38,772 nt of DNA from Rickettsiales bacterium (GTDB lineage: Bacteria > Pseudomonadota > Alphaproteobacteria > Rickettsiales > JALZUV01), in NCBI GenBank assembly GCA_029252805.1, contig JAQXAR010000045.1, forward strand, positions 1 through 38,772, read 5' to 3'. This document shows, piece by piece, positions 5,825-31,238 of this stretch. A program made the position numbers and the translations under genes. The notes beneath the pieces are model-generated. The model had not been told where the DNA came from, searched no databases, and was given only the letters and a program-made list of their open reading frames with translations. Within the stretch, counting starts at the first letter, position 1; each line of letters starts with the position of its first letter.

Positions 5825-5853
5825 GGTAAACTGGAAAGTAATAAGAGATAATT

Positions 5854-6870
5854 ATGGCGAATCCAAAAGATGTTACTAAGTATACTGGCTTAGAAAAAAC
5901 CGCGATTATGATGATGGCGATGGGCGAAGATAATGCCGGCAAGCTATTTTCTTTGATGGAAGATGATGAGATTAAGGAAATCTCTAGCACCATGACAAGC
6001 TTAGGTCCTGTGCCCTCTGAAGTCGTCGAGAAACTCTTCATGGAATTTGCAGACCAGCTTAATGCAACGGGCGGAATTTCGGGTAACCTCGATAGCACCG
6101 AACGCCTACTGCAAAAAGCTCTTGGTAAAGACCGTGTCGATGCCATTATGGATGATATTCGCGGTCCTGCCGGTCGGAACACTTGGGAGAAGCTTGGCAA
6201 TGTCAGCGAAGAAGTACTCGCCACTTACCTCAAGAACGAGTACCCGCAAACTATCTCACTGGTACTGTCTAAAATTCGCCCCGATCATGCCGCTAAGGTG
6301 CTGACCGAGCTGCCTGAAGATTTGGCAATGGATGTCATCACTCGTATGTTGAGTATGGAAGCCGTGAAAAAAGAAGTGCTCGATGGTATTGAGAAAACGC
6401 TACGCGTCGAATTCATGAGTAACCTCGCGAAAACGCAACGCCGTGATAGCCATGAGATGATGGCCGAAATCTTCAATAATTTCGACCGGAATACGGAAAC
6501 TAAATTCATGGGCGACCTTGAAGGCCGCGATGAAGATGCAGCAGAACGTATTCGCGCGCTTATGTTCACGTTCGAAGATCTCATCAAGATCGACGGAAGC
6601 GGTATCCAAGCACTCTTGCGTGGCATTGATAAAGATAAATTGTCGATCGCGCTCAAAGGCGCCTCGGATGAAATTAAAGACCTCTTCTTTGGTAATATGA
6701 GTGAACGTGCCGTGAAAATCCTCAAAGAGGAAATGGAAGGCGCTGGCCCAGTTCGCTTGAAAGATGTGGATGAGAATCAAATGTACATCGTGATGCAAGC
6801 AAAAGACCTCGCTGCTAAAGGTGAAATCATCATTGCTGATGGCGGTGCTGACGATCAACTGGTTTATTAG
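5854..6870 (+). CDS. fliG: Flagellar motor switch protein FliG
   Basis: Rotor protein that joins the MS ring to the C-ring and meets the stator. It is 338 residues, normal for the family. The N-terminal domain ([21 protein letters not shown]) binds FliF. The middle domain has [14 protein letters not shown], where most FliGs have EHPQ, and the C-terminal torque domain runs from about residue 225, with the charged helix [20 protein letters not shown]. The start ATG at 5854 lies 29 bases after fliF, behind GGAAAG/AGAGA. The gene order matches a rotor module. Confidence 0.96.
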
Positions 6871-6891
6871 GATAGGAAACAGGACAAAACG

Positions 6892-7773
6892 ATGAAAATT
6901 ACTCCCTTCACATTTGAACCTTTTGGTGGCGATGAAACGGCCACCTCATCGGCTATTATTGCCGATGGTTTGAATGGGCCAGAAGAAGAAGCGGCAGAAG
7001 AAATAATCATTCCAACTTTTAGCCAAGAGGAACTCGAGGCAGCCAAACAACACGCTTACGATGATGGATTCCTAGCGGGCAAAAAAGAAGGCGTGCGCGA
7101 TGCAGAACACCAAAATCAGCAGCATCTAGAAGTTCTGAATGGCATTGTCGGCCAAGTGAATGAGAAAATTGGGAAGCTGCAAAGTGACTATAGCCAAACA
7201 CTTTCAAAGCGTCAGGTGGAACTTGGGAAACTCGTTATTACCTGTGCCGAAAAACTAGCGGGCGAGGCCTTGCGAAAAGACCCGATCAGCGATATTGCAG
7301 AGATGATTGATGAGTGCCTAAACGGTCTCTTCGACTCACCGGAAATCACCGCAAATGTGCATCCAGAAATCGCGCCGTTACTGCAAGGTAAATTACCAAA
7401 CACGGTCACCGTAAATGCAGATGAGAGCCTCACGCTAAACGACTGCACGCTGAACTGGAAACATGGCCAGGCCATGCGCGATACCGCAAACCTATGGAGC
7501 GAAGTTGAAGGCATTATCAGCCGCCACTTTACCACAACCAGCACGCTCGAAGCAGAGGTCTCTGTTGAAGCAACGTTAGAAACTCAAACCTCCGCACCGC
7601 AGCCTATCACGGCAACCCCATCCGCTGAGATAGTAACCGAGACACCACCGCAAGTGCACGCAAATGCACCGGTAAGAACCATTATCAACTCACCTTCTGC
7701 AACTCCAGAAAGTGAGCCACTAACCGAAACACCACCGACGACCAATGAGATTAAGGGAGAAGACCATGAGTGA
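6892..7773 (+). CDS. fliH: FliH-like flagellar export ATPase regulator
   Basis: Predicted cytoplasmic partner of the export ATPase FliI and of FliN; the Caulobacter counterpart is FlbE. The 293 residues are divided into a short N-terminal stretch, a FliH-type helical part rich in Glu/Gln (EELEAAKQHAYDDGFLAGKKEG, with GxxxG-like spacing at about 45-75), a C-terminal FliH/YscL domain (LVITCAEKLAGEALRKDP onward), and a Pro/Thr/Glu-rich tail of about 80 residues with no homology I recognise. Position between fliG and fliN supports the call, since sequence identity in this family is low. Its end overlaps the chosen fliN start by 8 bases. fliI itself is not in the window. Confidence 0.75.
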   Translation: MKITPFTFEPFGGDETATSSAIIADGLNGPEEEAAEEIIIPTFSQEELEAAKQHAYDDGFLAGKKEGVRDAEHQNQQHLEVLNGIVGQVNEKIGKLQSDYSQTLSKRQVELGKLVITCAEKLAGEALRKDPISDIAEMIDECLNGLFDSPEITANVHPEIAPLLQGKLPNTVTVNADESLTLNDCTLNWKHGQAMRDTANLWSEVEGIISRHFTTTSTLEAEVSVEATLETQTSAPQPITATPSAEIVTETPPQVHANAPVRTIINSPSATPESEPLTETPPTTNEIKGEDHE

Positions 7774-8137
7774 TGAAATGGATATGGGTACGGAGATACC
7801 CGCAGAAGTACTGGCCGAAAAGCCTAGCGCAATGCCCACTGGAAATACCGGTGAAATGGCAGCCGCCTTTGGCGCAAGCACACCTCGCGATGATACGAAC
7901 CTATCGCTAGAAGCAGTTTACGACGTACCGGTTAATATTTCGGTCGTACTCGGCAAAACGACCATGCAGGTACACCAACTGCTCAAACTTGGGCGCGGTG
8001 CCGTGGTTGAGTTGGATCGTAAAGTAGGCGAACCGATCGATATTTTGGTCAATAACCGCTTGGTGGCACGCGGCGAAATCGTCGTAGTAGAAGACCGCAT
8101 CGGTGTGACCATGACGGAAATTATGAAAGCGGATTAG
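7766..8137 (+). CDS. fliN: Flagellar motor switch protein FliN
   Basis: C-ring component that docks CheY-P signals and export cargo. An upstream in-frame ATG exists at 7745, but ATG 7766 is behind AAGGGAGAAG with 5-base spacing and gives a sensible N-terminus (MSDEMDMG), 123 residues. The C-terminal SpoA/FliN domain is complete (about 45-121): VYDVPVNISVVLGK, LLKLGRGAVVELD, EPIDILVNNRLVARGEIVVV and GVTMTEIM. The N-terminal 40 residues are acidic and flexible. The start lies inside the end of fliH, suggesting translational coupling. Confidence 0.95.
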   Translation: MSDEMDMGTEIPAEVLAEKPSAMPTGNTGEMAAAFGASTPRDDTNLSLEAVYDVPVNISVVLGKTTMQVHQLLKLGRGAVVELDRKVGEPIDILVNNRLVARGEIVVVEDRIGVTMTEIMKAD

Positions 8138-8141
8138 ACCT

Positions 8142-9545
8142 ATGCGACTATTGATTATCGGAGATTTAGGCGGACAAATTGGCGAAGCGACCCGTATCGC
8201 TCGTGGGCGTGGGGCGACCGTAAACCAAGTACCAGATCATCACGCGGCACTTGAAGATTTACGCGACGGAAAAGGCGCTGACCTCATCATGATTGAAGCG
8301 AAGAATCATGGTCATATTGCGAGCCTTGTCACCAGCCTCAAATCCGAACGTATCATCGTCACAGTGGTGGCTTGTGGTGTCGATAATGATAAAGACGCAG
8401 CCGTTGCAGCGATTAAATCCGGCGCGAAAGAATATATCCCGCTACCACCGGATGCTGAATTGATCGCCGCCGTCATGGAAGCCATCACCGAGCAAAGCCA
8501 TACCGTCATCCATCAAGCGGATAGCATGAAAGTCTTACTTGGCATGGCTGATCAAATCGCGCCGTCAGAGGCCTCTGTACTGATTACGGGCGAATCGGGA
8601 ACCGGTAAAGAAGTGATCGCACGCTATGTGCAAGCGGGCAGCAAGCGCAGAGATAAGCCGTTTATTTCGGTTAATTGCGCGGCCATTCCTGAGAATCTTT
8701 TAGAATCTGAATTGTTTGGCCATGAAAAAGGTGCCTTTACGGGCGCCGTCAGCCGTCGTGTCGGTAAATTTGAAGAAGCCGATGGCGGAACACTGCTACT
8801 GGATGAAATTTCAGAGATGGATGTGCGCTTGCAAGCCAAGCTCCTACGTGCGATTCAAGAGCGTGAGATCGACCGGGTTGGTGGTACAAAACCCGTCAAA
8901 GTCAATATCCGAATCCTTGCAACCTCTAACCGCGATTTGCAAGAAGCGGTGCGCAAAGGCGACTTCCGCGAAGATCTTTTCTTCCGCCTGAATGTCATTA
9001 ATTTGGAGATTCCGAGTTTACGTGAACGTAAAGAAGATGTGCCGCTATTGGGCAAATTCTTTGCCGAGAAATATGCACATGCTAATGGCATGGATCCACG
9101 TCCTTTGAATGATGCGGCCTTCGAGAAAATGGCTGAATATCACTGGCCGGGTAATGTGCGTGAGCTGGAAAATACCATGCATCGCGCCGTACTGATGGCC
9201 CAAGGGCCTGAGATTGGTGCGGAGGCGATTTTACTTTCCACCAGCCTGCGCCCCCCTGCACCGGTTGAAGCCCCTGCCCCAACACAAGCCGCACCCGAAA
9301 CTCAAGAGGAGGAAAACGATATGTCTACAAGTAGTGACGACACTCGCCCGAATGATCAAGTGGGGCGTACCGTTGCCAGTGTTGAGAAAGAACTGATTCT
9401 TGATACGCTGGATTATTGCCTCGGCAATCGTACGCATGCCGCCAATATTCTCGGTATTTCGATTCGCACCTTGCGCAATAAGCTCAAGCAATATGGCGAT
9501 CAGGGTTCAGAGATTCCTTCCGCACCGGGCACAGGAACCGTTTAG
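8142..9545 (+). CDS. flbD: FlbD-type sigma-54-dependent flagellar regulator with atypical receiver
   Basis: Enhancer-binding protein that activates late and represses early flagellar genes in alphaproteobacteria. The 467 residues give a receiver-like domain (1-115), a AAA+ sigma-54 activation domain with Walker A GESGTGKE (150-157), the sigma-54 contact loop GAFTGA (197-202) and Walker B LLLDE (218-222), an Ala/Pro linker (about 368-405), and a Fis-type HTH (about 413-456). The receiver lacks the usual acidic pair and has Glu52 where the phospho-accepting Asp would be (DLIMIEAKN). Caulobacter FlbD has the same N-terminal style (GAKEYIPLPPD). ATG 8142 follows fliN by 4 bases. It is the fifth gene of the fliF operon, as in Caulobacter. 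Confidence 0.9.
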   Translation: MRLLIIGDLGGQIGEATRIARGRGATVNQVPDHHAALEDLRDGKGADLIMIEAKNHGHIASLVTSLKSERIIVTVVACGVDNDKDAAVAAIKSGAKEYIPLPPDAELIAAVMEAITEQSHTVIHQADSMKVLLGMADQIAPSEASVLITGESGTGKEVIARYVQAGSKRRDKPFISVNCAAIPENLLESELFGHEKGAFTGAVSRRVGKFEEADGGTLLLDEISEMDVRLQAKLLRAIQEREIDRVGGTKPVKVNIRILATSNRDLQEAVRKGDFREDLFFRLNVINLEIPSLRERKEDVPLLGKFFAEKYAHANGMDPRPLNDAAFEKMAEYHWPGNVRELENTMHRAVLMAQGPEIGAEAILLSTSLRPPAPVEAPAPTQAAPETQEEENDMSTSSDDTRPNDQVGRTVASVEKELILDTLDYCLGNRTHAANILGISIRTLRNKLKQYGDQGSEIPSAPGTGTV

Positions 9546-9555
9546 GTCGATTTAG

Positions 9556-11682
9556 GTGGCAAATAACCCCACACGCATGAGCATCTTTAAAGGCCACGCC
9601 AAAACGGTAGGTGGCCGCAGCGATATTTTCTTCGCGATAGGGATTATCGGTATTCTCGTTGTCTTGATGCTACCGATTCCGCCGCAAGCGCTTGACCTGC
9701 TACTGGGCGTCTCGATCACTCTTTCTGTGCTTATTTTGATGACGGTTCTGTTCGTCGATAAACCACTACATCTCAATTCCTTCCCAACCATTTTGCTGAT
9801 TGCCACTATGTTGCGGCTGTCACTAAACATCGCCTCGACAAGGCTGATTCTCTCTAGAGGGCATGAAGGCAGCGGTGCTGCTGGCGGAGTGATTGAGGCC
9901 TTTGGCGGCTTTGTCATGCAAGGTTCCATCATTATTGGTGTGATCATTTTTGGAATTCTCACCATCATTAACTTCATCGTTATCACCAAAGGTTCGGGCC
10001 GTATTGCCGAAGTTTCCGCGCGTTTCAGCTTGGATGCAATGCCCGGTAAGCAGATGGCGATCGATGCGGATTTATCTGCTGGTCTGATCGAAGAACATGA
10101 GGCCAAAACCCGCCGTAAAGAACTCGAAGATGAATCTACTTTCTTTGGTGCGATGGATGGTGCGAGTAAGTTCGTACGCGGTGATGCGATTGCGGGTTTG
10201 CTCATTACCTTCATCAACCTAATCGCGGGTATCTTAATTGGTGTGGCGCAAAATGACCTCGCATTTGGCGAGTCACTCAACACTTATACGATCCTGACGA
10301 TTGGTGATGGTTTGGTGAGCCAAATCCCTGCGCTAATCGTTTCGACTGCCGCCGGTATGTTGGTGACAAAAGCCGGTGTCGCAGGCTCCGCCGATAAAGC
10401 CGTACTCGCACAATTAGGCCGTTTCCCTTCCGCGCTCGGCCTTACCAGTGGCTTGCTTTTCTTGCTCGCATTAATGCCGGGCATTCCGTTCATTCCCTTC
10501 TTCCTTCTTTCTTCTGTGCTCGGTTATGCGGCATGGTATATGTGGAAAAACCCTGCAGAAACAGATGAGTTAGTCGGTGCAGGTGCCGCAGCAGATGGCC
10601 TGACACAAGTGATCGGCAAAGATGGTGAAGTACAAGCCGCCGCGCCCGAAGAGAATATGGCAGATAGCTTGCAAATTGATTCACTTCGTTTGGAACTGGG
10701 TTATGGTTTATTGCCGCTAATCAATTACACGAAAGGCCATCGCCTGACGGAGCAAATCAAAGCATTGCGTAAACAAATGGCGCGCGAATCTGGCTTTATT
10801 ATTCCACCCGTTCGTATTCAGGATAATATGCAACTACCGGCCAATAGCTATGTGGTGAAGGTCAAAGAAATTGAATGTGCACGCGGCTCAATCCGTCCAG
10901 ATATGCTATTGGTGATGGATCCAAGCGGCGGTAAAATTAGCTTGCCCGGCGAAGAAACAACGGAGCCGACTTTCGGCTTACCGGCCATGTGGGTAGCAGA
11001 GAGCCATCGCGAAGAAGCACTGTTCCGCAACTATACGGTGGTTGACCCGCCAACGGTTGTCACCACCCATCTAACCGAGATGGTGAAAGATAATATGGCC
11101 GATTTGCTGTCTTATTCTGAAACACAAAAGCTGCTAGATGACTTACCAACCGGCGAACAGAAGCTAATCGCCGATATTATTCCGGCGGTGATTTCGGTGA
11201 GTGCGGTTCAGCGTGTGTTGCAGAATCTCTTAAGCGAGCAAGTCTCGATTCGCGATCTACCGACCATTATCGAATCCATCGCAGAAGCGGGACGTATCAC
11301 GCAAAATGTGACCATGATTTCCGAACATGTGCGCGCCCGCCTTGCTCGCCAAATCAGCCATACTTACACGTCTGAAGAAGGCTATATTCCGCTGCTTGCC
11401 CTTTCGCCAACGTGGGAACAAGAATTCACAGGAAGCCTCGTTGGCCAAGGCGAAGAACGCACGCTGAGCATGGCGCCCAGTAAAATTCAAGATTTCATCA
11501 CCTCCGTTCGCACAAAGTTCGATCAGTTCGCGATGCAAGGCCAAAGCCCTGTACTGCTAACCAGCCCGACAATCCGCCCTTATGTGCGCTCTATTGTCGA
11601 ACGTTTCCGCCCCTCTACGGTGGTGATGTCGCAAAATGAAATCCACACCAAAGCCAGTATTAAAACCTTAGGTCAATTATGA
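9556..11682 (+). CDS. flhA: Flagellar export gate protein FlhA
   Basis: Major inner-membrane component of the flagellar type III export gate. The 708 residues comprise eight hydrophobic segments in the first ~320 residues, the FHIPEP-family loop with KGSGRIAEVSARFSLDAMPG and KQMAIDADLSAGLI, then a ~350-residue cytoplasmic domain (from SLQIDSLRLELGYGLLPLI) that binds chaperone-substrate complexes. GTG 9556, 10 bases after flbD, is taken as start; an ATG at 9577 (MSIFKGHAK) is possible, and neither has a strong Shine-Dalgarno. Its last base triplet overlaps flhF as ATGA. Confidence 0.96.
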   Translation: MANNPTRMSIFKGHAKTVGGRSDIFFAIGIIGILVVLMLPIPPQALDLLLGVSITLSVLILMTVLFVDKPLHLNSFPTILLIATMLRLSLNIASTRLILSRGHEGSGAAGGVIEAFGGFVMQGSIIIGVIIFGILTIINFIVITKGSGRIAEVSARFSLDAMPGKQMAIDADLSAGLIEEHEAKTRRKELEDESTFFGAMDGASKFVRGDAIAGLLITFINLIAGILIGVAQNDLAFGESLNTYTILTIGDGLVSQIPALIVSTAAGMLVTKAGVAGSADKAVLAQLGRFPSALGLTSGLLFLLALMPGIPFIPFFLLSSVLGYAAWYMWKNPAETDELVGAGAAADGLTQVIGKDGEVQAAAPEENMADSLQIDSLRLELGYGLLPLINYTKGHRLTEQIKALRKQMARESGFIIPPVRIQDNMQLPANSYVVKVKEIECARGSIRPDMLLVMDPSGGKISLPGEETTEPTFGLPAMWVAESHREEALFRNYTVVDPPTVVTTHLTEMVKDNMADLLSYSETQKLLDDLPTGEQKLIADIIPAVISVSAVQRVLQNLLSEQVSIRDLPTIIESIAEAGRITQNVTMISEHVRARLARQISHTYTSEEGYIPLLALSPTWEQEFTGSLVGQGEERTLSMAPSKIQDFITSVRTKFDQFAMQGQSPVLLTSPTIRPYVRSIVERFRPSTVVMSQNEIHTKASIKTLGQL

Positions 11683-12689
11683 GATTACGTACGTTCCATG
11701 CTTCCGATATGCAAACAGCGATGCAGCAAATCCGCGAGGAGCTGGGCGATTCTGCGGTGATTATTTCCACCACGCGCGATGAGAGCAGCAAGCGCGTGTC
11801 TGTCACCGCCGCGATTGATCAAGATGAAGTGCATATTGTGGAAGAAGCACCCACGCGGCAAGCGGCGAATACGGCCATTCCAGATCCCGAGATTACCCTC
11901 GCACGGAGCAATTCAATCCTGGGTGCTTTGGAAAAAGTGATGGAATATCATTCCATCCCATCAGAGCTACAGGCCGAGCTTTTAAATACCGCCCGCATGC
12001 TAGATTTTGAACCGCATGGCGGGGATGAGGCGCTCACCAAACTACTCGCTAAGACGCTAGAGGCTCACTTCCGTTTCCTTCCGCTTCCGGTGAGCCGTGC
12101 TGGATTTCGCCTTATGTTGATTGGGCCAACGGGTGCGGGGAAAACCACGACATTGGCAAAAATTGCCGCACAATTAAGTATGGAAAAACACCCAATCACT
12201 ACCGTTACCTTCGATACGAAACGTGCCGGTGGTATTGAGCAATTCCGCGCCTTCACCGATATCCTCAATATCGATTTAGAAGTGGCGGAAACCGGCGATG
12301 ATTTACGCGAGATTCTCGCAGCACAACCGCGGGAACAAATCGTATTAATCGATAGCTTTGGCTGTAACCCCTATAATGCGAACGACCTCAAAGAGCTTCG
12401 CCCCTTCCTCAACATGCCTAATGTAGAGCCCGTGCTTACCATGCCCGCCGGCATTGATGCTGCCGAAGCCGCAGATATCGGCAAAGCGTTTGAAGTCAGC
12501 AATGCAAAACGCCTACTCATGACACGCTGCGATATTTCACGCCGTTTTGGGGGTGCCTTAAGTGCGGCGCATGTCGGCGATTATGCTTTCTGCAACTATA
12601 GCAGCTCAGACCGAGTCGTGGGTGAATATGGCCCGCTCGGCACCAAGACACTCAGTAATTTACTCATGCAATATCGAACGCAACGTTAA
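11679..12689 (+). CDS. flhF: FlhF, SRP-type GTPase for flagellar placement, with divergent G motifs
   Basis: Polar-flagellum placement GTPase related to Ffh/FtsY. The 336 residues start with the FlhF N-terminal pattern (MRLRTFHASDMQTAMQQIREELGDSAVIISTT), then a linker, helical N domain and G domain. P-loop IGPTGAGKTTT is at 148-158. The G2 region DTKRAGGIEQ (179-188) replaces the usual DTxRxGAxEQ. G3 reads DSFG (225-228) where DTAG is expected, and the TKLD-type G4 is TRCD (282-285). Nucleotide handling may thus be weaker than in canonical FlhF. ATG overlaps the flhA stop by 4 bases, and flhG follows after 9 bases. Confidence 0.88.
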   Translation: MRLRTFHASDMQTAMQQIREELGDSAVIISTTRDESSKRVSVTAAIDQDEVHIVEEAPTRQAANTAIPDPEITLARSNSILGALEKVMEYHSIPSELQAELLNTARMLDFEPHGGDEALTKLLAKTLEAHFRFLPLPVSRAGFRLMLIGPTGAGKTTTLAKIAAQLSMEKHPITTVTFDTKRAGGIEQFRAFTDILNIDLEVAETGDDLREILAAQPREQIVLIDSFGCNPYNANDLKELRPFLNMPNVEPVLTMPAGIDAAEAADIGKAFEVSNAKRLLMTRCDISRRFGGALSAAHVGDYAFCNYSSSDRVVGEYGPLGTKTLSNLLMQYRTQR

Positions 12690-12698
12690 GGACATCAC

Positions 12699-13466
12699 AT
12701 GACGACGAAAAAGAATAATATTATCGCAGTCGCCTCCGGTAAGGGGGGCGTAGGTAAAACGTGGCTCAGCATTACGCTCACGCATTTATTCGCGCGCGCC
12801 GGTCGCCGTGCTTGCTTACTCGATGGTGATGTCGGTCTCGCTAATATTGACGTCCAACTCGGCGTCGCACCGACCAAAGATTTGAGTGATATTTTTACCA
12901 AAGGCAAGCACCTACGCGATATTGCCTACCCGTATGAAGAAGGAGGGTTTGATATTATTCCCGGTCGTTCTGGTTCAGGTGATATGGCTAATTTGCCAGA
13001 TAGTGCGCTGCGAAACCTAAATGATCAGCTGCAAGATATCTCCAATGATTATGACCATATCATTATGGATTTGGGCGCAGGGATTGAGAAAAACGTCCGC
13101 TACCTGGCCGCATTGGCCGATCGTGTCGTGGTCGTTTTAACGGACGAACCAACCTCACTCACTGATGCCTATGCTTTCATCAAGCTTTGCCTTCAACAAG
13201 ATAATACGGCACAGATTCAAGTCGTCATCAACCAAGCATCGACCCGCAAAGAAGGCGAAAAGATCTACGGCGCTATCTTAAACGCCTGCCAGAATTTCCT
13301 CAATTATAAGCCTGAGCTACTTGGTATTATCCGCAAAGATAATAAAGTGCGCGATGCGATCCGTAGCCAAAGCCCGATGTTGAAGAAATCTCCGCAATCG
13401 ACGGCCGCAACCGATGTCGCTGCCATCTCCGTCAAACTCATGCAAAATAAAATGCAGAACGCTTGA
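12699..13466 (+). CDS. flhG: FlhG/FleN, MinD-like ATPase for flagellar number control
   Basis: MinD/ParA-family ATPase that stimulates FlhF and limits flagellum number. The 255 residues carry a deviant Walker A with signature lysine SGKGGVGKTW (13-22), the switch I region DGDVGLANIDVQLG and a Walker B-like IIMDLGAG. The usual start of MinD-like FlhG, with an extra DQAxxLR activator stretch, is missing or very short here (only MTTKKNN before the core). The C-terminus ends in an AISVKLMQN helix, which could bind membrane. RBS 'aaggacatcac' precedes ATG 12699. It sits in the standard flhA-flhF-flhG order. Confidence 0.92.
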   Translation: MTTKKNNIIAVASGKGGVGKTWLSITLTHLFARAGRRACLLDGDVGLANIDVQLGVAPTKDLSDIFTKGKHLRDIAYPYEEGGFDIIPGRSGSGDMANLPDSALRNLNDQLQDISNDYDHIIMDLGAGIEKNVRYLAALADRVVVVLTDEPTSLTDAYAFIKLCLQQDNTAQIQVVINQASTRKEGEKIYGAILNACQNFLNYKPELLGIIRKDNKVRDAIRSQSPMLKKSPQSTAATDVAAISVKLMQNKMQNA

Positions 13467-23315: not shown

Positions 23316-25532
23316 ATGAGCAACCAATTTGGAAATTTTAACCTGCCGGAGAACCTCCAGCCGGGTCAAGAGAAAGAAGCGTCTGCAGCTTCGGATAAGG
23401 TTGCGCCCAAAACTCCTCCTACCAACCCAGATCAACCTACCCAACCGCCAGCTCCCTCCCCACCCGAAATCGAGATTGACCCTTTGGCAGGTGAATTTGC
23501 GGCTCCCATTGCTGCGGCACCGCCGGCACCTCACCCGACTTCGGAAACTGCTCCCCAACCATCGGATCCTCGCCGCCCCCTTACTCCACCCGAAATTGAA
23601 TTTGACCCTTTAGCCGGTAAATTCTCAGCTCCCATTGCTGCGGCACCACCGCCCTCTCCTACACCCGACCCTTCAGCGGCAGAAGCTCCCCTTGTGGCGA
23701 TGCCGCAGGTTGAGCCGTCACCCGATACAGAGGCCCCTCCATTTGTGGCACCGACAGCAGAAAACACCGCACCAAGCTCCGTATCTGCAGCCGATTTTTC
23801 TCCGGCTCCGGCGGCGGCGGCTTCATTACTCGTAAGCGATGGCGAAGCTCCAACGAAGCGCCCGATGCGAATTGGTGAAAAATTAATGAGCCTTGGGCTC
23901 ATCTCCGATGATCAATTGCAAGTGGCACTGCAAGAACAAAAAACCAGTAAAAAGCTACTCGGGGCGATCCTCGTTGGCCTTGGATTTATTAGTGAGCACG
24001 CGTTAGGTGAAATTCTAGCGGAGGCATCAGGCGCCAAGAAGTTTGACCCTAAACAGAGCATGCTTGACCCGGCACTTGTGACACGCGTTCCCAAGGAAGT
24101 GGCGCTTCGACACAAAGTTATCGCGGTAAGCCTGACAGAGGACACACTACAACTCGCAACTACCGACGTTTACAACGTATTGGCGGTGGATCAAGTACGC
24201 CGCTTCTTCGAAAATGTACAAATTGAGCCAATCTATTGTTCGGAAGCTGAAATCCTTGAGCTGATTGATCAATATTACGATTACGAGCTCTCAATTGACG
24301 GTATTTTACGTGAGATCGAAACCGGTGAGCGCGACCTCGATGACCTAAGCGGAACCGAAGAAGGCTATGTTAACCCGACGGTACGTTTGGTTGATGCCAT
24401 GCTCGTCGATTCGATCAAAGTCGGCGCATCGGACATTCACTTTGAGCCTGAAGGTCAGTTCCTACGCTTACGCTATCGTATCGATGGTGATTTGGTCCAG
24501 GTTCGTAGTTTCCATCGCAACTATTGGCCTGCCATTGCCGTACGTATCAAAATTATGTCCGGCATGAATATCGCGGAAACCCGAATGCCGCAGGATGGTC
24601 GTATCTCTTTCCAGGTGATGGGACGCGAGGTTGATTTCCGTGTTGCCACCCAACCCACCGTGCATGGTGAAAACATCGTGATGCGTTTGTTGGATAAGAC
24701 AAAATCACTCGTGCCATTAGAAGATCTCGGCTTTGCGGATCATAATATCAACCTACTGAAGAAGCTCCTCAAACGTCCGGAAGGGATTATCATTGTGACC
24801 GGCCCGACCGGTAGTGGTAAAACCACGACGCTCTATTCCATTCTTAGTTACATCAACTCGATGGATGTGAATATTATGACGCTGGAAGATCCGGTGGAAT
24901 ATCAGTTACCCCTCATTCGACAAACCAATGTACGCGAAGGAACGATTGATTTTGGTAACGGAATTAAATCCCTCATGCGCCAAGATCCTGACATCATCTT
25001 CATTGGTGAGGTACGTGACGAAGATACCGCACTCATGGCCGTACGTGCCGCACTGACCGGCCACCAAGTCTTTACCACGCTCCACACGAACGATGCGCTG
25101 GGTGCCGTTCCTAGGCTCGGCGATATCGGGGTGCCTGCTCACTTATTGGCAGGCTCGCTGATTTGCACCATGGCACAACGTCTGGCCCGCAAACTTTGCC
25201 AAACGTGCAAGAAACCGAGACTTGCGACACCAGAAGAAGCCCAAATCCTTGGATTCGCGCCCGATAGCCCGCCGACGGTTTACGATGCTGTTGGTTGCAA
25301 ACAATGCCGCAATACAGGGCATAAAGGCCGCACCGCGATCATCGAAGTTCTTCGTGTAGACGAAGGATTGAACGAATTAATTGCCACACATGCCACTCGT
25401 AACGCTATGATGAATTACGCTCTCAATAATGGTTTCGTCACCATGGTTGAGGATGGCATTGATAAAGTGTTGCAAGGCGATATTGATATTGAACAGCTCA
25501 TATCCACGCTCGATATGACGGATAGAATGTAG
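23316..25532 (+). CDS. MshE/PilB/GspE-type secretion ATPase with c-di-GMP-binding MshEN domain
   Basis: Hexameric ATPase driving pilus extension or pseudopilus secretion. The 738 residues begin with a ~175-residue Pro/Ala-rich disordered part with an internal duplication, then MshEN. This has motif I RIGEKLMSLGLISDDQLQVA (185 on, 24 residues), a 5-residue spacer, and motif II LLGAILVGLGFISEHALGEI (214 on), the spacing known for c-di-GMP binding. The core has Walker A GPTGSGKTTT (496-505), the Asp box around LEDPVEYQ (523-530), Walker B with Glu565 (DPDIIFIGEVRDED), HTNDA, and a zinc tetracysteine (Cys628, 631, 661, 664) as in GspE/PilB. It heads a five-gene operon. MshE is the closest functional analogue. 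Confidence 0.88.
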   Translation: MSNQFGNFNLPENLQPGQEKEASAASDKVAPKTPPTNPDQPTQPPAPSPPEIEIDPLAGEFAAPIAAAPPAPHPTSETAPQPSDPRRPLTPPEIEFDPLAGKFSAPIAAAPPPSPTPDPSAAEAPLVAMPQVEPSPDTEAPPFVAPTAENTAPSSVSAADFSPAPAAAASLLVSDGEAPTKRPMRIGEKLMSLGLISDDQLQVALQEQKTSKKLLGAILVGLGFISEHALGEILAEASGAKKFDPKQSMLDPALVTRVPKEVALRHKVIAVSLTEDTLQLATTDVYNVLAVDQVRRFFENVQIEPIYCSEAEILELIDQYYDYELSIDGILREIETGERDLDDLSGTEEGYVNPTVRLVDAMLVDSIKVGASDIHFEPEGQFLRLRYRIDGDLVQVRSFHRNYWPAIAVRIKIMSGMNIAETRMPQDGRISFQVMGREVDFRVATQPTVHGENIVMRLLDKTKSLVPLEDLGFADHNINLLKKLLKRPEGIIIVTGPTGSGKTTTLYSILSYINSMDVNIMTLEDPVEYQLPLIRQTNVREGTIDFGNGIKSLMRQDPDIIFIGEVRDEDTALMAVRAALTGHQVFTTLHTNDALGAVPRLGDIGVPAHLLAGSLICTMAQRLARKLCQTCKKPRLATPEEAQILGFAPDSPPTVYDAVGCKQCRNTGHKGRTAIIEVLRVDEGLNELIATHATRNAMMNYALNNGFVTMVEDGIDKVLQGDIDIEQLISTLDMTDRM
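23460..23657 (+). repeat. Direct duplication of a 24-codon unit in the ATPase N-terminus
   Basis: Two copies, 23460-23531 and 23586-23657, encode PPEIEIDPLAGEFAAPIAAA and PPEIEFDPLAGKFSAPIAAA plus a Pro tail. The DNA is also similar between the copies, so this is a fairly recent internal duplication or is kept under selection. The acidic/hydrophobic 'EIE(I/F)DPLAG' core inside disordered Pro-rich sequence looks like a short docking motif present twice. Confidence 0.85.
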
Positions 25533-25540
25533 GAAAAACA

Positions 25541-26743
25541 ATGGCGACCTATCAATATTCTGCGATGAATCAAGACGGCAAGATCGTCAAAGGCGAAATG
25601 ACTGCCGAGAATGATATTGACCTCGAAGCACGCTTAAGAGACTTACACCTTGATATCGTGAAGTGCAGCTTAGCAAAGCAAAAAGCTGCCAGCTTCTTAA
25701 ATAAAATTACTTACAATGACTTGATCGTACTATGCCTTCATTTAGAGCAGCTAAGTCGCGCCGGTGTCCCGCTTCTAGAGGCAATTTCGGATGTACGTGA
25801 TTCCACCGAATCTGTTCGTTTACGCGATATTATGGCCGGCGTGTTCGAGGAAGTAAAATCCGGATCACTCTTCTCAGAAGCGCTTGGGAGGCACCCACGT
25901 GAATTTGATGAAGTCTTTCTCGGTTTGATTAAAGCAGGGGAGAAGACCGGTGATATGACCGAAGTTTATACTCACCTAGCGGATCACTATAAATGGACCC
26001 ACGACATTAAACGTAAGATTAAAAAAGCACGCGGCTATCCGATGTTCTTGCTCGTGGTCATGAGCGCCGTCATTTTCGTTCTCATGACAACGGTAGTGCC
26101 TAAACTCATCGACTTTATTACCTCGCAAGGGTTCGAAATTCCGATTCATACTCGGGCACTAATCGCCACGTCTGAATTTTGTCAGGACTATTGGTTTATC
26201 ATTATCTGTATTCCTATTTTCAGCTGGATCGGCTTTAAAATTGCCTATCGAGTTTCCGATAATTTTGCCTATAAAGCGGATTCACTCGCGCTAAAAGTCC
26301 CTGTGTTCGGGAATGTCATTCGCAAAATCAATATGGCACGCTTTACTCACTTCTTTGGCGTCATGTTCCGTAGTGGTGTTGATATCTTGGAATCTCTAGA
26401 TTCATCCAGAAATGTAGTGGCCAACCGACTGCTTAAACAAAGTATTGCTGATGTAAAATCTGCCGTTTCAGACGGTAGCACCGTTACCGATGCTTTGCAG
26501 AAGTCTGGCGAATTTCCAACCATGGTGGTTCGGATGTTTAAAGTAGGTGAAAATAGCGGTAATATGAATGATGCACTGGAGAACGTGAACTTCTTCTATA
26601 ATCGTGAAGTTAATGACGCGGTTGACAATATTGTGGGTATGATCCAACCGGCTCTGACCCTCATCATGGGTGTCTTAATTTTCTGGGTAATCTCTGCGGT
26701 CTTTGGGCCGCTTTACGATTCCTTTAGTCAAATGCCATTATAG
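25541..26743 (+). CDS. PilC/GspF/MshG-type inner-membrane platform protein
   Basis: Polytopic platform protein on which the ATPase acts to add or extract pilin subunits. The 400 residues have the normal two T2SSF domains. The first contains NDLIVLCLHLEQLSRAGVPLLEAI and FLGLIKAGEKTGDMTEV; membrane segments lie at about 168-190, 212-236 and 366-392; and the second domain has MARFTHFFGVMFRSGVDILESL and MVVRMFKVGENSGNMNDAL. ATG 25541 follows the ATPase stop by 8 bases behind AGGAAAAACA. Strongly conserved family with no missing part. Confidence 0.93.
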   Translation: MATYQYSAMNQDGKIVKGEMTAENDIDLEARLRDLHLDIVKCSLAKQKAASFLNKITYNDLIVLCLHLEQLSRAGVPLLEAISDVRDSTESVRLRDIMAGVFEEVKSGSLFSEALGRHPREFDEVFLGLIKAGEKTGDMTEVYTHLADHYKWTHDIKRKIKKARGYPMFLLVVMSAVIFVLMTTVVPKLIDFITSQGFEIPIHTRALIATSEFCQDYWFIIICIPIFSWIGFKIAYRVSDNFAYKADSLALKVPVFGNVIRKINMARFTHFFGVMFRSGVDILESLDSSRNVVANRLLKQSIADVKSAVSDGSTVTDALQKSGEFPTMVVRMFKVGENSGNMNDALENVNFFYNREVNDAVDNIVGMIQPALTLIMGVLIFWVISAVFGPLYDSFSQMPL

Positions 26744-26779
26744 TGAAAATTGGAAAAATGATGGGTAAAGAAAAATAGC

Positions 26780-28357
26780 GTGGCACAGAAAAACACAGGA
26801 TTTATCTTCTTTATTGGCGATGAGGGCGCGGTTATTTCCTATGTCGTCGGCAAAAGAGTCGAGAAGAAACTCTTTGTCACTTCTTCCGACGGAGACTCAC
26901 TTGGGAATTTACAAAAGCTCCTCAATAGCGATCCACAAGCCCCTATTTCCCTTTTACTCGATAGTATTGATCAATCTTATCAAACACAAAGTTTCCCTCC
27001 CGTTGCTAAACTCAGCGTTCAGAAACTCGTTGATAAACGGCTAGAGCGCGATTTTTCGCCCGGCGATATCACAAGCTCCCTTCCTTTGGGCAAAGAAAAA
27101 ACAGGACGTAATGATTGGAAATTCTTGTTAATTTCAGTCGTCCCTTCTCCTCAGCTGATGCAGTGGGTGGATTTTGTCTTAGATATCAATAATCCCTTTA
27201 AAGGTATTTTCCTGGTTCCTGTTGAAGCGGAAAACTTTATCCGCCAGCTCTCGAGCAAGAAAAAGTCAGAGCAGAGCGATGCGATGTGGCACATGCTCGT
27301 TCTGCATAATAAGGTCAGTGGATTTCGCCAAATCATCACTCGAAATGGACGCCTTACTTTTACACGCCTAACGCAAGCCTCTTCAACAGAGAGTGTCCCC
27401 CTCGTTATTGCGGGTAATATTGAACAAGAAATTGTGAGTACCATTGAATATTTAAAACGTCTTTCCTTCCGTGATGATGAAGGGCTCGATGTTACGGTGA
27501 TTGCTGCAGAAGAAGTCGTGCATGCCATTGATGAGAAGAAAATTGGGCCGCATAACGAGGCTCTATTTATTACCCCTACCGAAGCGGCAGAAGCGGCCTC
27601 GCTTCCTGCAGAAAACTATACGGATAACCACTTCGTTGATATTATCTTTTCTGCAGCCTTTCATAATAGCAAAAAGAAGGTTCTTCCTCTCCACACGAAA
27701 ATTAGTAAGGTGCTCGGCAGATTACAATCTGGGATAATGGCGGTTAAATATGCAACCTTCCTTTTCGTCGTATTAATCATCTTAGGGATCGCCTTTTATG
27801 CCTATTCTTGGTTCGACTCTTTCTCGTCCGAAGGCCCACTCAATGAGTCCATTCAGCGCACTCAACAACAAGTGAATGTCTTGAAGAAAGGCGATGAACT
27901 ACTCCCTGATGATATTGAAAAAATCGAAGATGCCGTTTCAATTTACGAAACATTTGCAGAGCAAAAATACGTTCCGCTCGATTTTGTTGAACAACTGATC
28001 GATGCGAATAAAAGAGGTGTTTTAATTCGCAAAATAGACTGGAACTCAGACACTGACTTTAAAAAACGCGCGAAGAAACAGGCTGCGTTCGTTTCTATCA
28101 ATGTTGATATTGAGTTCACTAAGAGGTTCCCAACGGCAGAGGCGCGCTTAGGCAAAATAAACGAGTATTTGGATAACCTAAGAGTAAGATTTCCTGAATA
28201 TATTATTACCCATACCAAAATTCCAGGAACCCTAAATGAGGGTGGCGGTATGATTGTCGATTTCACCAACCCTAAAAGTCGGGCACTTGTTTCTACTCCT
28301 ATTATCATGTCACTTCGTTTTTCTGCAGGAGAAAAAGTGAAAGGAGCGCGACGATGA
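26780..28357 (+). CDS. Bitopic assembly protein, PilM-PilN/GspL/MshI-like by position and topology
   Basis: I do not recognise the sequence directly. The 525 residues give a large cytoplasmic domain (about 1-315) with an opening FIFFIGDEGAVISYVVG strand-like stretch, one strong membrane helix at about 320-344 (MAVKYATFLFVVLIILGIAF), a charged coiled-coil of about 50 residues, and a periplasmic domain of about 130 residues. This topology equals GspL, or a PilM-PilN fusion such as MshI. The actin-like ATP motifs of PilM are not evident. GTG 26780 is used; an upstream ATG pair is out of frame. It overlaps the next gene by 4 bases. Function inferred from the operon. Confidence 0.55.
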   Translation: MAQKNTGFIFFIGDEGAVISYVVGKRVEKKLFVTSSDGDSLGNLQKLLNSDPQAPISLLLDSIDQSYQTQSFPPVAKLSVQKLVDKRLERDFSPGDITSSLPLGKEKTGRNDWKFLLISVVPSPQLMQWVDFVLDINNPFKGIFLVPVEAENFIRQLSSKKKSEQSDAMWHMLVLHNKVSGFRQIITRNGRLTFTRLTQASSTESVPLVIAGNIEQEIVSTIEYLKRLSFRDDEGLDVTVIAAEEVVHAIDEKKIGPHNEALFITPTEAAEAASLPAENYTDNHFVDIIFSAAFHNSKKKVLPLHTKISKVLGRLQSGIMAVKYATFLFVVLIILGIAFYAYSWFDSFSSEGPLNESIQRTQQQVNVLKKGDELLPDDIEKIEDAVSIYETFAEQKYVPLDFVEQLIDANKRGVLIRKIDWNSDTDFKKRAKKQAAFVSINVDIEFTKRFPTAEARLGKINEYLDNLRVRFPEYIITHTKIPGTLNEGGGMIVDFTNPKSRALVSTPIIMSLRFSAGEKVKGARR

Positions 28358-29007
28358 ATGATAAACATACACGGCTAAAGAAGTCACTCATTGCGCATGC
28401 AATAAAAGGGGCAGTCATCATCGTTGGGTGTGCTATTGGACTAGGTGCTGCGGCCTATTTTTACCAAAACTCACAAGATAATATTAAAAAACTTACCTCT
28501 CGTGAAAGAGCGTTAAAGAGTCAAATCACGCAACTGAAAGCGCGGCAAACACGAGCCGGAAACACCCTCGAACTTTACCGAAAGCTCGTAAAAGACTCTA
28601 ATCTCAAGTCGTTAGAGTTAAACCGAAAAAATATTTCCGAACTCCTCAAAGCACTCAGTGTGAAATATAAAATCAATAATTTATCAATCAACGTGAACCC
28701 CATTCAGGCGCAAATGAAGGCGCCTTTTATCAAGAAAACAGGAACCGTTATTACCACAACGATTGACCTTCAATTCGATTCCTCCAGCGATGCACATGGG
28801 TTCGCATTCACCGATGAAGTCCTTAAAAGCTTCTCCGGGTATTTGAACCTCAAATCATTTTCTGCCAAACGTGATAAAAACCTCTCCGAGAATGTTATTC
28901 GTGAATTACTTAAAGGCGGGAGAACGAATTTTATTCGAAGCCAAGTTTCATTTGATTGGCTCGGCCTGCGCCCAAAAGCAGAAGTTAAGAAAGAAGGTGC
29001 CAAATGA
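28354..29007 (+). CDS. PilO/GspM/MshJ-like membrane protein (unrecognised sequence)
   Basis: A 217-residue protein with a short basic cytoplasmic N-terminus, one membrane helix at about 17-39 (IKGAVIIVGCAIGLGAAAYF), a coiled-coil (about 43-85, rich in Lys/Gln/Leu heptads), then a mixed alpha/beta periplasmic domain. PilO and GspM share exactly this layout and size. The ATG overlaps the preceding stop (ATGA), and the next ATG overlaps this stop, so the three are coupled. Sequence alone would not name it; position does. Confidence 0.5.
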   Translation: MNDKHTRLKKSLIAHAIKGAVIIVGCAIGLGAAAYFYQNSQDNIKKLTSRERALKSQITQLKARQTRAGNTLELYRKLVKDSNLKSLELNRKNISELLKALSVKYKINNLSINVNPIQAQMKAPFIKKTGTVITTTIDLQFDSSSDAHGFAFTDEVLKSFSGYLNLKSFSAKRDKNLSENVIRELLKGGRTNFIRSQVSFDWLGLRPKAEVKKEGAK

Positions 29008-30050
29008 CTCGATCATTCCTTCTAGCCTTTACCACTCTATGCTTTCTTGCCACTTTCATTGTTGATACTTCTCCTGCCTACAGTCAGGAATTGCTATTGG
29101 AACTTCCTAGCTCCTCTACACGAACGTCGCCCACAAACGCGTTGAAAATTCTATCGCCCAATGAAATATCCGATCTCTACCGAGAATCCCCTTCTTCCAA
29201 TGCTCCTACCGCTGCCCCCAACGCATTACCGCAGAAGACTGAGAAAACGGCTACCCCCGTAACAAAACAAGATAGCTTCAGTCAATTAATCCAAGATCTG
29301 GCCACTGAGAACTTAGATCAATCTCCAGATCGCTTCGATATCAACACCATTTGGTCACGCAAGTCTGCGATGCTTTTACCAGCAGAAGTCAAAACCTTTA
29401 ATGCCGCCATCAGGCGCCATTTAAGGTTAAAAAACCAACCTGTCATTGCGGTAGAAGCACAAGACCCCGAAGCAGTGGTCGCAGAAGCAGTCCCCGCTGG
29501 CAGATACCCCTTTATCGCACTTAGTTCCATTATGTATGCTGGCCCCGATAACTGGGCTGCATGGGTAAATGGCAAACGTTACACGCCTTTGAAAACGGAA
29601 AGCCTCGCTGGAATAACCGTTGAAAGAGTCACGAAAGACACCATTAGTATGCGCTGGAGACAAGCCGCTACATCTCAAACCACAACCACTCAGGATAATG
29701 GGTACGGCATTCAAGAAACGGTGACTAAAGTTTCGGGCCCTACGGCAGACTCACTTCCGGAGAATATTGAAAAGGTCGATGATCGTACTTACATTATCAC
29801 GCTCTCTTCCAATCAGGCCTTCATTACACAAGATTTTGAAATTCATGAAGGGCGCGTTGCGACTAAACGTATTTCTGAGATTTATCAGCAGCAGCTTGCC
29901 CTTAAACAAGCGGCGCTAGATGATCTAGCCGGATTAAGCCGTTCGGAAGCAGCAGAGCCAGATCCATTCTCTATCCAAGAAGAAAAAGATAAAGAGGACA
30001 TTGCAAAATTACTGGAAATCTATAGAAATTCAGAGACCCAAAACCAATAA
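29004..30050 (+). CDS. Exported protein, PilP/GspC/MshK- or GspB-like candidate
   Basis: The 348-residue product starts with a Sec signal peptide (MTRSFLLAFTTLCFLATFIV, cleavage likely near AYSQ, about 28). A Ser/Thr/Pro linker (about 35-80) follows, and at about 160-225 a small beta-like domain with ALSSIMYAGPDNWAAWVNGK, LKTESLAGITVERV, ISMRWR. This 'x-W-x-ING-x...I-G..V..I..D.V.L' rhythm is that of the HR/GspB/PilP domain which contacts the secretin. The C-terminal ~100 residues are charged and helical. Last gene of the operon. Family assignment is inference from pattern plus order; no secretin gene is near. Confidence 0.45.
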   Translation: MTRSFLLAFTTLCFLATFIVDTSPAYSQELLLELPSSSTRTSPTNALKILSPNEISDLYRESPSSNAPTAAPNALPQKTEKTATPVTKQDSFSQLIQDLATENLDQSPDRFDINTIWSRKSAMLLPAEVKTFNAAIRRHLRLKNQPVIAVEAQDPEAVVAEAVPAGRYPFIALSSIMYAGPDNWAAWVNGKRYTPLKTESLAGITVERVTKDTISMRWRQAATSQTTTTQDNGYGIQETVTKVSGPTADSLPENIEKVDDRTYIITLSSNQAFITQDFEIHEGRVATKRISEIYQQQLALKQAALDDLAGLSRSEAAEPDPFSIQEEKDKEDIAKLLEIYRNSETQNQ

Positions 30051-30069: not shown

Positions 30070-30786
30070 ATGAAATCGCCTTTATCCATTGAGAATATTT
30101 CGAAAGCCTATGGCAAACATAAGGTGCTAGATAATCTATCACTGGATTTAAAGTCCGGTGAGATTTTTGGATTGATCGGCCTTAACGGCATCGGCAAAAC
30201 GACGCTAATTAAATGTGTCCTGCAACTCGCGCACGCTGATAGCGGTAATGTCACCCTTTTTGACACACCCGCCATGATTGATAGTTCTCGTCAGAACCTG
30301 GCCTATTTGCCAGAAAAATTCCATCCCTCCAAACATTTACGCGGGTATGAATATCTTGAGCTTTGCTTGGATTATTACGGCCTCAAACTGAATAAGAACG
30401 AAGCCATGCAAACGGCACAAGACCTAGAATTGGATGCAAAGGCGCTCGGCAACCGTATCTCTTCCTACTCCAAAGGGATGGGGCAAAAAATTGGGCTGAT
30501 CGGCGCCTTCCTGTCGAAACGTCCGTTGCTTATTCTGGATGAGCCGATGAGTGGGCTAGACCCAAAAGCGCGCATTGCTTTGAAAAAGAAATTAATCAAC
30601 TACCGCAATGCAGGCAATACGATCTTCTTTAGCTCTCATATTCTGGCTGATATTGATGAAATTTGCGACCGCGTCGCCATTATCCACGATACAAAGATTC
30701 GCTATCTCGGCACCCCAAGCGGCTTTAAAGACCAATACCCGGATACCTCACTCGAAGCATCCTTCCTGAAGGCGATTGCGGCTTAA
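30070..30786 (+). CDS. ABC transporter ATP-binding protein (orphan)
   Basis: Cytosolic ATPase of an ABC exporter or regulator, 238 residues. Walker A is GLNGIGKTT (about 38-46). Walker B with D-loop is LLILDEPMSGLDPKAR, the switch His is in FSSHIL, and the signature is SSYSKGMGQK rather than LSGGQ; 'YSKGM' is common in the CcmA/DrrA/GldA-like subgroup, so this need not mean inactivity. It ends shortly after the ATPase core (only 'LEASFLKAIAA' beyond the usual fold). No permease gene adjoins. The 19-bp gap from the pilus operon and no obvious terminator suggest read-through. Substrate unknown. Confidence 0.88.
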   Translation: MKSPLSIENISKAYGKHKVLDNLSLDLKSGEIFGLIGLNGIGKTTLIKCVLQLAHADSGNVTLFDTPAMIDSSRQNLAYLPEKFHPSKHLRGYEYLELCLDYYGLKLNKNEAMQTAQDLELDAKALGNRISSYSKGMGQKIGLIGAFLSKRPLLILDEPMSGLDPKARIALKKKLINYRNAGNTIFFSSHILADIDEICDRVAIIHDTKIRYLGTPSGFKDQYPDTSLEASFLKAIAA

Positions 30787-30791
30787 CGCGG

Positions 30792-31076
30792 TCACCACGG
30801 ATAATGCCAGTCCGAAACCTCTGGATCGGTAAACCTTCTCGCACCTTCGGCCTCGCCGCAAGCGCGCTGCTGCAAACAGCGATGCACATAATGCGCCGTA
30901 CCTGAGCTTTCCTGCAGCAAGCTAACGAATCTTTCAAATTCCTTTAGGTCTTCTAGGCTGGGTATATAAGTTTTATCACGCTGATAGCGCCAGAGTATTT
31001 CCATCGCGCAATGGAGCAGACTGGTTGCGCCTTGCAGATCGCGTTTACGGAGTTTTCGTCGAGGAAAGAATTTCAT
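30792..31076 (-). CDS. Hypothetical basic protein
   Basis: I do not recognise it. The frame is open to 31121, but ATG 31076 (MKFFPRRKLRKRDLQ) is the more natural start, with AAGGG a few bases upstream; this gives 94 residues. The N-terminus is strongly basic and the rest is helical with three cysteines (LLHCAMEILW, HRCLQQRACGEAEGA) and a C-terminus ending in HYPW. No signal or membrane helix. It is convergent with the ABC gene, 5 bases apart, with no hairpin between. Base use does not look alien, but no family is evident. Confidence 0.5.
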   Translation of the reverse strand: MKFFPRRKLRKRDLQGATSLLHCAMEILWRYQRDKTYIPSLEDLKEFERFVSLLQESSGTAHYVHRCLQQRACGEAEGARRFTDPEVSDWHYPW

Positions 31077-31238
31077 GTGCGGCACCCTTTGGTCGGTTAA
31101 AACAAAGTGGCACCCATGCAAAATCGCACGAGTGCCGGGGTGTTAACAAATCACCGCTAGATGACCGCAACGCTTTTGGCCGAAGCCTATTGCATAACGC
31201 CGCCACCCCGACCTGAATCGAGATGACATTTTAGATAA

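Follow-up and report, generated by a model that had tools for sequence, protein, structure and literature searches.

Motor and inner-membrane alignment complex of a probable divergent type IVa-like pilus in Rickettsiales, with a predicted PilM-PilN fusion

The machine that builds type IVa pili (T4aP), as known from Pseudomonas aeruginosa and Myxococcus xanthus, comprises PilB, C, D, M, N, O, P, Q, T and U, of which PilT and PilU are retraction ATPases, and its genes are distributed over several loci. PulL, the GspL protein of a type II secretion system (T2SS), has been described as a PilM-PilN fusion (PMC10191384), and in two of the mannose-sensitive haemagglutinin (MSHA) pilus loci compared here MshI is likewise one long chain (479 and 477 amino acids). 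For basal Rickettsiales (Mitibacteraceae, Athabascaceae and Deianiraea) the main texts of two papers already report type IV pili (T4P), without mention in those texts of PilM or a secretin (PMC9352585, PMC10847448). The subject here is a gene block of the same order, beginning at position 23316 of a 38,772-nucleotide stretch (the window: positions 1 to 38,772 of contig JAQXAR010000045.1, assembly GCA_029252805.1). It very probably supplies a retractable type IVa-like pilus with its motor and its alignment complex in the inner membrane, the other parts of that pilus being encoded elsewhere in the genome and function being read from predicted folds, profile matches, synteny and the presence of the other components. 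The initial annotation had proposed an undescribed variant of a type IV filament system. Since T4P were already reported for basal Rickettsiales, the class of machine is known and the present one a divergent variant within it; what stands of the proposal is the divergence of the inner-membrane components. Within open-licence main texts no description was found of the alignment complex of this order, of a PilM-PilN fusion alongside PilT, or of the link to an ABC transporter considered below.

Five open reading frames (ORFs) occupy 23316-30050, all intact and all on the forward strand: PilB, the extension (assembly) ATPase (23316..25532, 738 amino acids); a PilC/GspF-type platform protein (25541..26743, 400 amino acids); ORF3, with a GTG start (26780..28357, 525 amino acids); ORF4 (28354..29007, 217 amino acids) and ORF5 (29004..30050, 348 amino acids). 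Overlaps of about 4 bases, thought initially to run throughout, are confined to the ORF3/ORF4 and ORF4/ORF5 junctions, with gaps of 8 bp between PilB and PilC and 36 bp between PilC and ORF3. An ABC transporter ATPase, recognized by its family matches, follows on the same strand at 30070..30786 as sixth and last gene of the conserved block. The order PilB-PilC-ORF3-ORF4-ORF5-ABC ATPase is repeated, with few exceptions, in dozens of Rickettsiales-type metagenome-assembled genomes (MAGs), being kept in most of 20 relatives' loci and in most of 51 loci of a separate scan, two sets that overlap in some genomes. It is not a product of chance. The 51 ORF3-type loci of that separate collection carry mostly Rickettsiales or Alphaproteobacteria MAG labels; the nearest named relative, of the same genus, is the Rickettsiales MAG with contig JALZUV010000058.1, and the same block is in the Athabascaceae MAG UBA6187, which is named in PMC9352585. 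In some relatives the ABC gene lies upstream of PilB and divergent from it instead of after ORF5, and in many pilT and pilU lie directly downstream of the block in the opposite direction. Within the order, 44 of the 55 genomes searched have an ORF3 homologue; across the class, the ORF3 profile matched in 21 of the 385 alphaproteobacterial genomes.

The ATPase and the platform protein are unambiguous from their family matches, as had been said of them from the outset: T2SSE (2.7e-120) and MshEN (1.3e-15) in Pfam for PilB, and T2SSF (PF00482, 2e-50, in two stretches) for the platform protein. It is otherwise with the three proteins that follow. None of ORF3, ORF4 and ORF5 has a Pfam or NCBIfam match above chance, and a Pfam scan of 15-20 aligned homologues of each brought chance-level matches only, which bears out their description as sequence-divergent. 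Identity to homologues is 24-57% for ORF3, 15-51% for ORF4 and 15-38% for ORF5, with frames and order still kept; members of the genus share 57% identity in ORF3 as against 88% in PilB (over the tree columns). Annotation misses the inner-membrane parts because they evolve fast.

The layout of ORF3 is that of a bitopic protein, with a cytoplasmic actin-like domain (residues ~1-306), a membrane helix (~315-333), a coiled coil and a ferredoxin-like periplasmic domain. The top Foldseek matches of its AlphaFold2 model (mean predicted confidence, pLDDT, 77.8) are P. aeruginosa PilM structures, and VIA-align superposes the model on P. aeruginosa PilM with Z 17.3 and a root-mean-square deviation (rmsd) of 3.7 over 288 residues. 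Its C-terminal half matches the PilN profile with 82% probability (hhalign, local), the score of 39.1 comparing with a shuffled maximum of 19.5 and being reached by 0 of 60 shuffles; without the membrane helix the probability falls to 31%. The ORF3 sequence profile run against the PDB finds PilN weakly (E 0.032). On the predicted fold, then, and with the PilN profile for its second half, ORF3 is PilM and PilN joined in one chain. T2SSL, the Pfam family of GspL, has no match in this genome nor among 20 ORF3 homologues. A search with the PilM_2 family was uninformative, its matches being mostly MreB/FtsA-sized proteins in nearly all genomes; two PilM_2 matches distinct from ORF3 are those at G031:C7:571914-572480 (frame of ~705 amino acids, 2.4e-19) and G041:C6:317958-318917 (~748 amino acids, 1.4e-15).

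In ORF4 an N-terminal membrane helix runs into a coiled coil, and a ferredoxin-like domain follows. The sole Foldseek match of its AlphaFold2 model (pLDDT 81.6) with E below 0.001 is the PilO chain of a T4aP machine model, and VIA-align gives PilO 2rjz as best match (Z 11.5, rmsd 2.3, 93 residues), a second PilO entry coming at Z 9.8 and PulM at 7.4. By best fold match ORF4 is predicted to be PilO-like. ORF5 has an N-terminal signal segment, a low-complexity linker and a small beta domain (SIMYAGPDNWAAWVNGKRY...); no lipobox cysteine is seen in its sequence. The MshK profile matches it with 91% probability over 58 columns across the core motif, aligned as 'L.SI......AWING.........V..I....V', and in controls none of 60 shuffles scores as high and the reversed profile gets 0.1%. 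The other twelve reference families all stay below 2% (PilP 1.4%), and the ORF5 sequence profile found nothing credible in the PDB. It is here taken as a putative exported PilP/MshK-like protein. Thus the GspL/MshI-like, PilO/GspM-like and exported PilP/GspB-like proteins first suspected from the letters are borne out, by folds and profiles, as a PilM-PilN, a PilO-like and an MshK/PilP-like protein, the folds of ORF3 and ORF4 being related to the alignment complex.

No pilin, secretin or prepilin peptidase is near the block, as had been noted; all are encoded elsewhere in the genome (2.19 Mb in 63 contigs, 99% complete). Contig C3 bears a prepilin peptidase (PilD, with A24_N and A24), an MshL-like secretin, an ABC-2 permease and a 253-amino-acid protein with one predicted membrane helix. 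The best model for the secretin is MshL, at 218-220 bits, under the cut-off of 250.2. PilT and PilU are neighbours on contig C5 (469 and 408 bits against a pilT_fam cut-off of 319), and eleven prepilin motifs are scattered over the genome. With PilD, secretin, PilT, PilU and prepilins all encoded, the genome seems to have a full set of parts for a retractable pilus. The compact five-gene machine of the initial annotation has in consequence to be redrawn as a six-gene block within a pilus system spread over three loci or more.

Single pilin genes, dispersed and at least seven in number (L054, L055, L058, L060), have a near-identical start, GFTLLE(L/I)SIVL, mostly then continuing VIIGLIIGGITVGQ, which suggests, at sequence level, an expanded pilin repertoire. 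On contig C30 (L057:6906-15294) two prepilin-motif genes are adjacent, one for a 346-amino-acid pilin-like protein and the other for a 2444-amino-acid protein that has a weak Lcl_C match besides its ~20 FG-GAP repeats and is a candidate for a giant adhesin at the pilus tip.

The motor in this block is the one PilB/GspE-type motor of its genome, and therefore the block is not a degraded duplicate of another locus, a fate that a second, complete Msh or T2SS locus might have implied. The other T2SSE matches over the cut-off are those of two Tad-like loci, a third similar ATPase, PilT, PilU and one ATPase on contig C4 that is probably VirB11-like. The Walker A sequence of PilB is GPTGSGKTT, and the motif is intact in 12 of 12 motors compared. 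The cyclic di-GMP (c-di-GMP) domain NF053729 is above its cut-off, with an MshE-type c-di-GMP motif, RIGEKLMSLGLISDDQLQVALQEQ, at residue 185. The N-terminal ~180 amino acids are Pro/Ala-rich, and in this region there is an imperfect duplication (window 23460-23530 and 23583-23660; PPEIEIDPLAGEFAAPIAAAPPAP and PPEIEFDPLAGKFSAPIAAAPPPS). The closest solved chains to PilB are T4aP PilB.

By fold or profile the component list equals that of the T4aP machine, ORF5 standing as the putative PilP, with PilT and PilU, dispersed genes, and an MshEN-bearing motor such as M. xanthus PilB also is (PMC11656802). Unlike that machine, the Rickettsiales one has its predicted PilM and PilN in one chain, a PilMN, PilO and PilP invisible to Pfam and NCBIfam, a PilB of a separate group, and a secretin that is MshL-like and not PilQ-like. 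Several observations weigh against the type IVa-like reading. The Z values of ORF3 for PilM, FtsA and EpsL are tied (T. thermophilus PilM 16.6, FtsA 16.6, EpsL 16.5), so fold alone cannot separate PilM from GspL or FtsA, though context does; the cytoplasmic domain has negligible similarity to PilM and GspL profiles (hhalign probability 6-14%), and with no sequence similarity for the actin-like part its PilM assignment rests on predicted structure. The profile match of ORF4 comes from the membrane helix and coiled coil, it scores better with PilN-type than with PilO-type profiles, and its soluble part alone gives nothing significant in profile comparison. The putative identity of ORF5 comes from a profile match. 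In the motor tree the Rickettsiales PilBs are their own group (94/97), distinct from the clades of MshE, of GspE and of the reference PilBs, and the tree does not fix their lineage position; a topology joining them to reference PilBs is not rejected (p-AU 0.31). Finally, 10 of 55 genomes have ORF3 and no detected secretin and 3 of 55 the converse, mismatches that thresholds and genome incompleteness may explain.

Could the block instead serve an MSHA-type pilus with scattered genes? We consider this improbable. The resemblance is real: MshL is the best model for the secretin, the motor bears the MshE-type motif, MshK fits ORF5 and MshI is a single chain. Yet the secretin stays below the MshL cut-off (218 vs 250.2), the MshE clade (99/99) is without Rickettsiales motors, and an MshEN domain is also found in M. 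xanthus PilB. MSH loci, moreover, are nearly always single and without a prepilin peptidase (PMC6668835), whereas here there are several loci, PilD of the system's own beside the secretin, and in many relatives PilT and PilU beside the block.

Even less probable is a T2SS, in which ORF3 would be GspL and short pseudopili would push folded proteins through the secretin. ORF3 does have the GspL/PulL architecture, an actin-like cytoplasmic domain, one membrane helix and a ferredoxin-like periplasmic domain in a single chain; its cytoplasmic domain matches EpsL nearly as well as it does PilM, and of the NCBIfam models it is GspF that fits the platform protein best, below the GspF cut-off. But ORF3 is ~100 amino acids longer than GspL/PulL, its profile similarity to them is not significant, and it belongs to a system with PilT and PilU, when T2SS have lost PilT (PMC10191384). 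The GspE clade (100/100), like that of MshE, holds no Rickettsiales motor, no GspG-K-like cluster was seen among the scattered prepilin motifs, and the fold of ORF4 is nearer to PilO than to PulM. As for a degenerate or non-functional pilus remnant, which divergent sequences without family matches might bring to mind, it is scarcely credible with other pilus components in the genome, Walker A intact in every motor compared, and reading frames kept open in this genome and dozens of related ones, conservation that suggests purifying selection. The block is accordingly filed as that of a T4aP-like pilus, divergent and with a fusion in the style of GspL and MshI.

A further feature is an ABC transporter divided between pilus loci, its ATPase in the motor block and an ABC-2 permease after the secretin on C3. 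Among the 55 genomes the permease is in 36 of 37 with a secretin and in 0 of those without one (Fisher 1e-13, shared ancestry ignored), and the two proteins are predicted to be partners. In M. xanthus the PilGHI proteins, which pilin translocation is reported to require (Wu et al. 1998, as cited in PMC3724824), are similarly an ABC ATPase, an ABC-2 permease and an extra protein tied to T4P genes. The likeness is one of gene content, and the Rickettsiales transporter differs in being split over two loci.

How the parts would work together can be sketched. PilD would cleave prepilins, and PilB would power PilC in adding pilins to the filament, with gating by c-di-GMP through the MshEN domain probable. 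The cytoplasmic domain of ORF3 would dock the motor and its periplasmic domain pair with ORF4, while ORF5 might connect the ORF3-ORF4 complex to the MshL-like secretin. Retraction would be the task of PilT and PilU. The ABC transporter probably aids the handling of pilins or pilus proteins, by analogy with PilGHI.

Two Tad-like pilus loci (L062 and L063, on contigs C13 and C9) each have a secretin, a CpaF-type ATPase and apparent TadB/TadC genes, and the third similar ATPase is on contig C15. The window itself has a flagellar cluster at 4124-13466 (FliF, FliG, FlhA, FlhF and FleN-like proteins, assigned by eye), which makes a flagellum probable in addition to pili. Just beyond the block a small ORF (30792-31121, reverse strand) has a 69% identical copy on contig C34 (L059:818-1111).

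A bolder proposal is that this is a separate order-wide T4aP lineage whose PilM-PilN fusion arose apart from those of GspL and MshI, and for whose assembly a dedicated ABC transporter, with its ATPase at one pilus locus and its permease and a helper at the other, is obligate, a device that could be the ancestral Rickettsiales means of attachment. We hold it to be possible and rather doubtful. That the T4P of basal Rickettsiales had a part in early attachment to hosts is a hypothesis under current discussion (PMC9352585, PMC10847448). The split ABC transporter, so consistently linked to the pilus genes, draws attention to a little understood step of pilus building that M. xanthus genetics brought to light and that here turns up in a very remote group. 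From family libraries the inner-membrane half of the Rickettsiales T4P cannot be named, and the ORF3-ORF5 alignments can be used as profiles for scoring the presence and loss of the pilus. With PilMN, PilO and PilP named the machine looks complete, and its presence or loss becomes scorable along the path to intracellular life.

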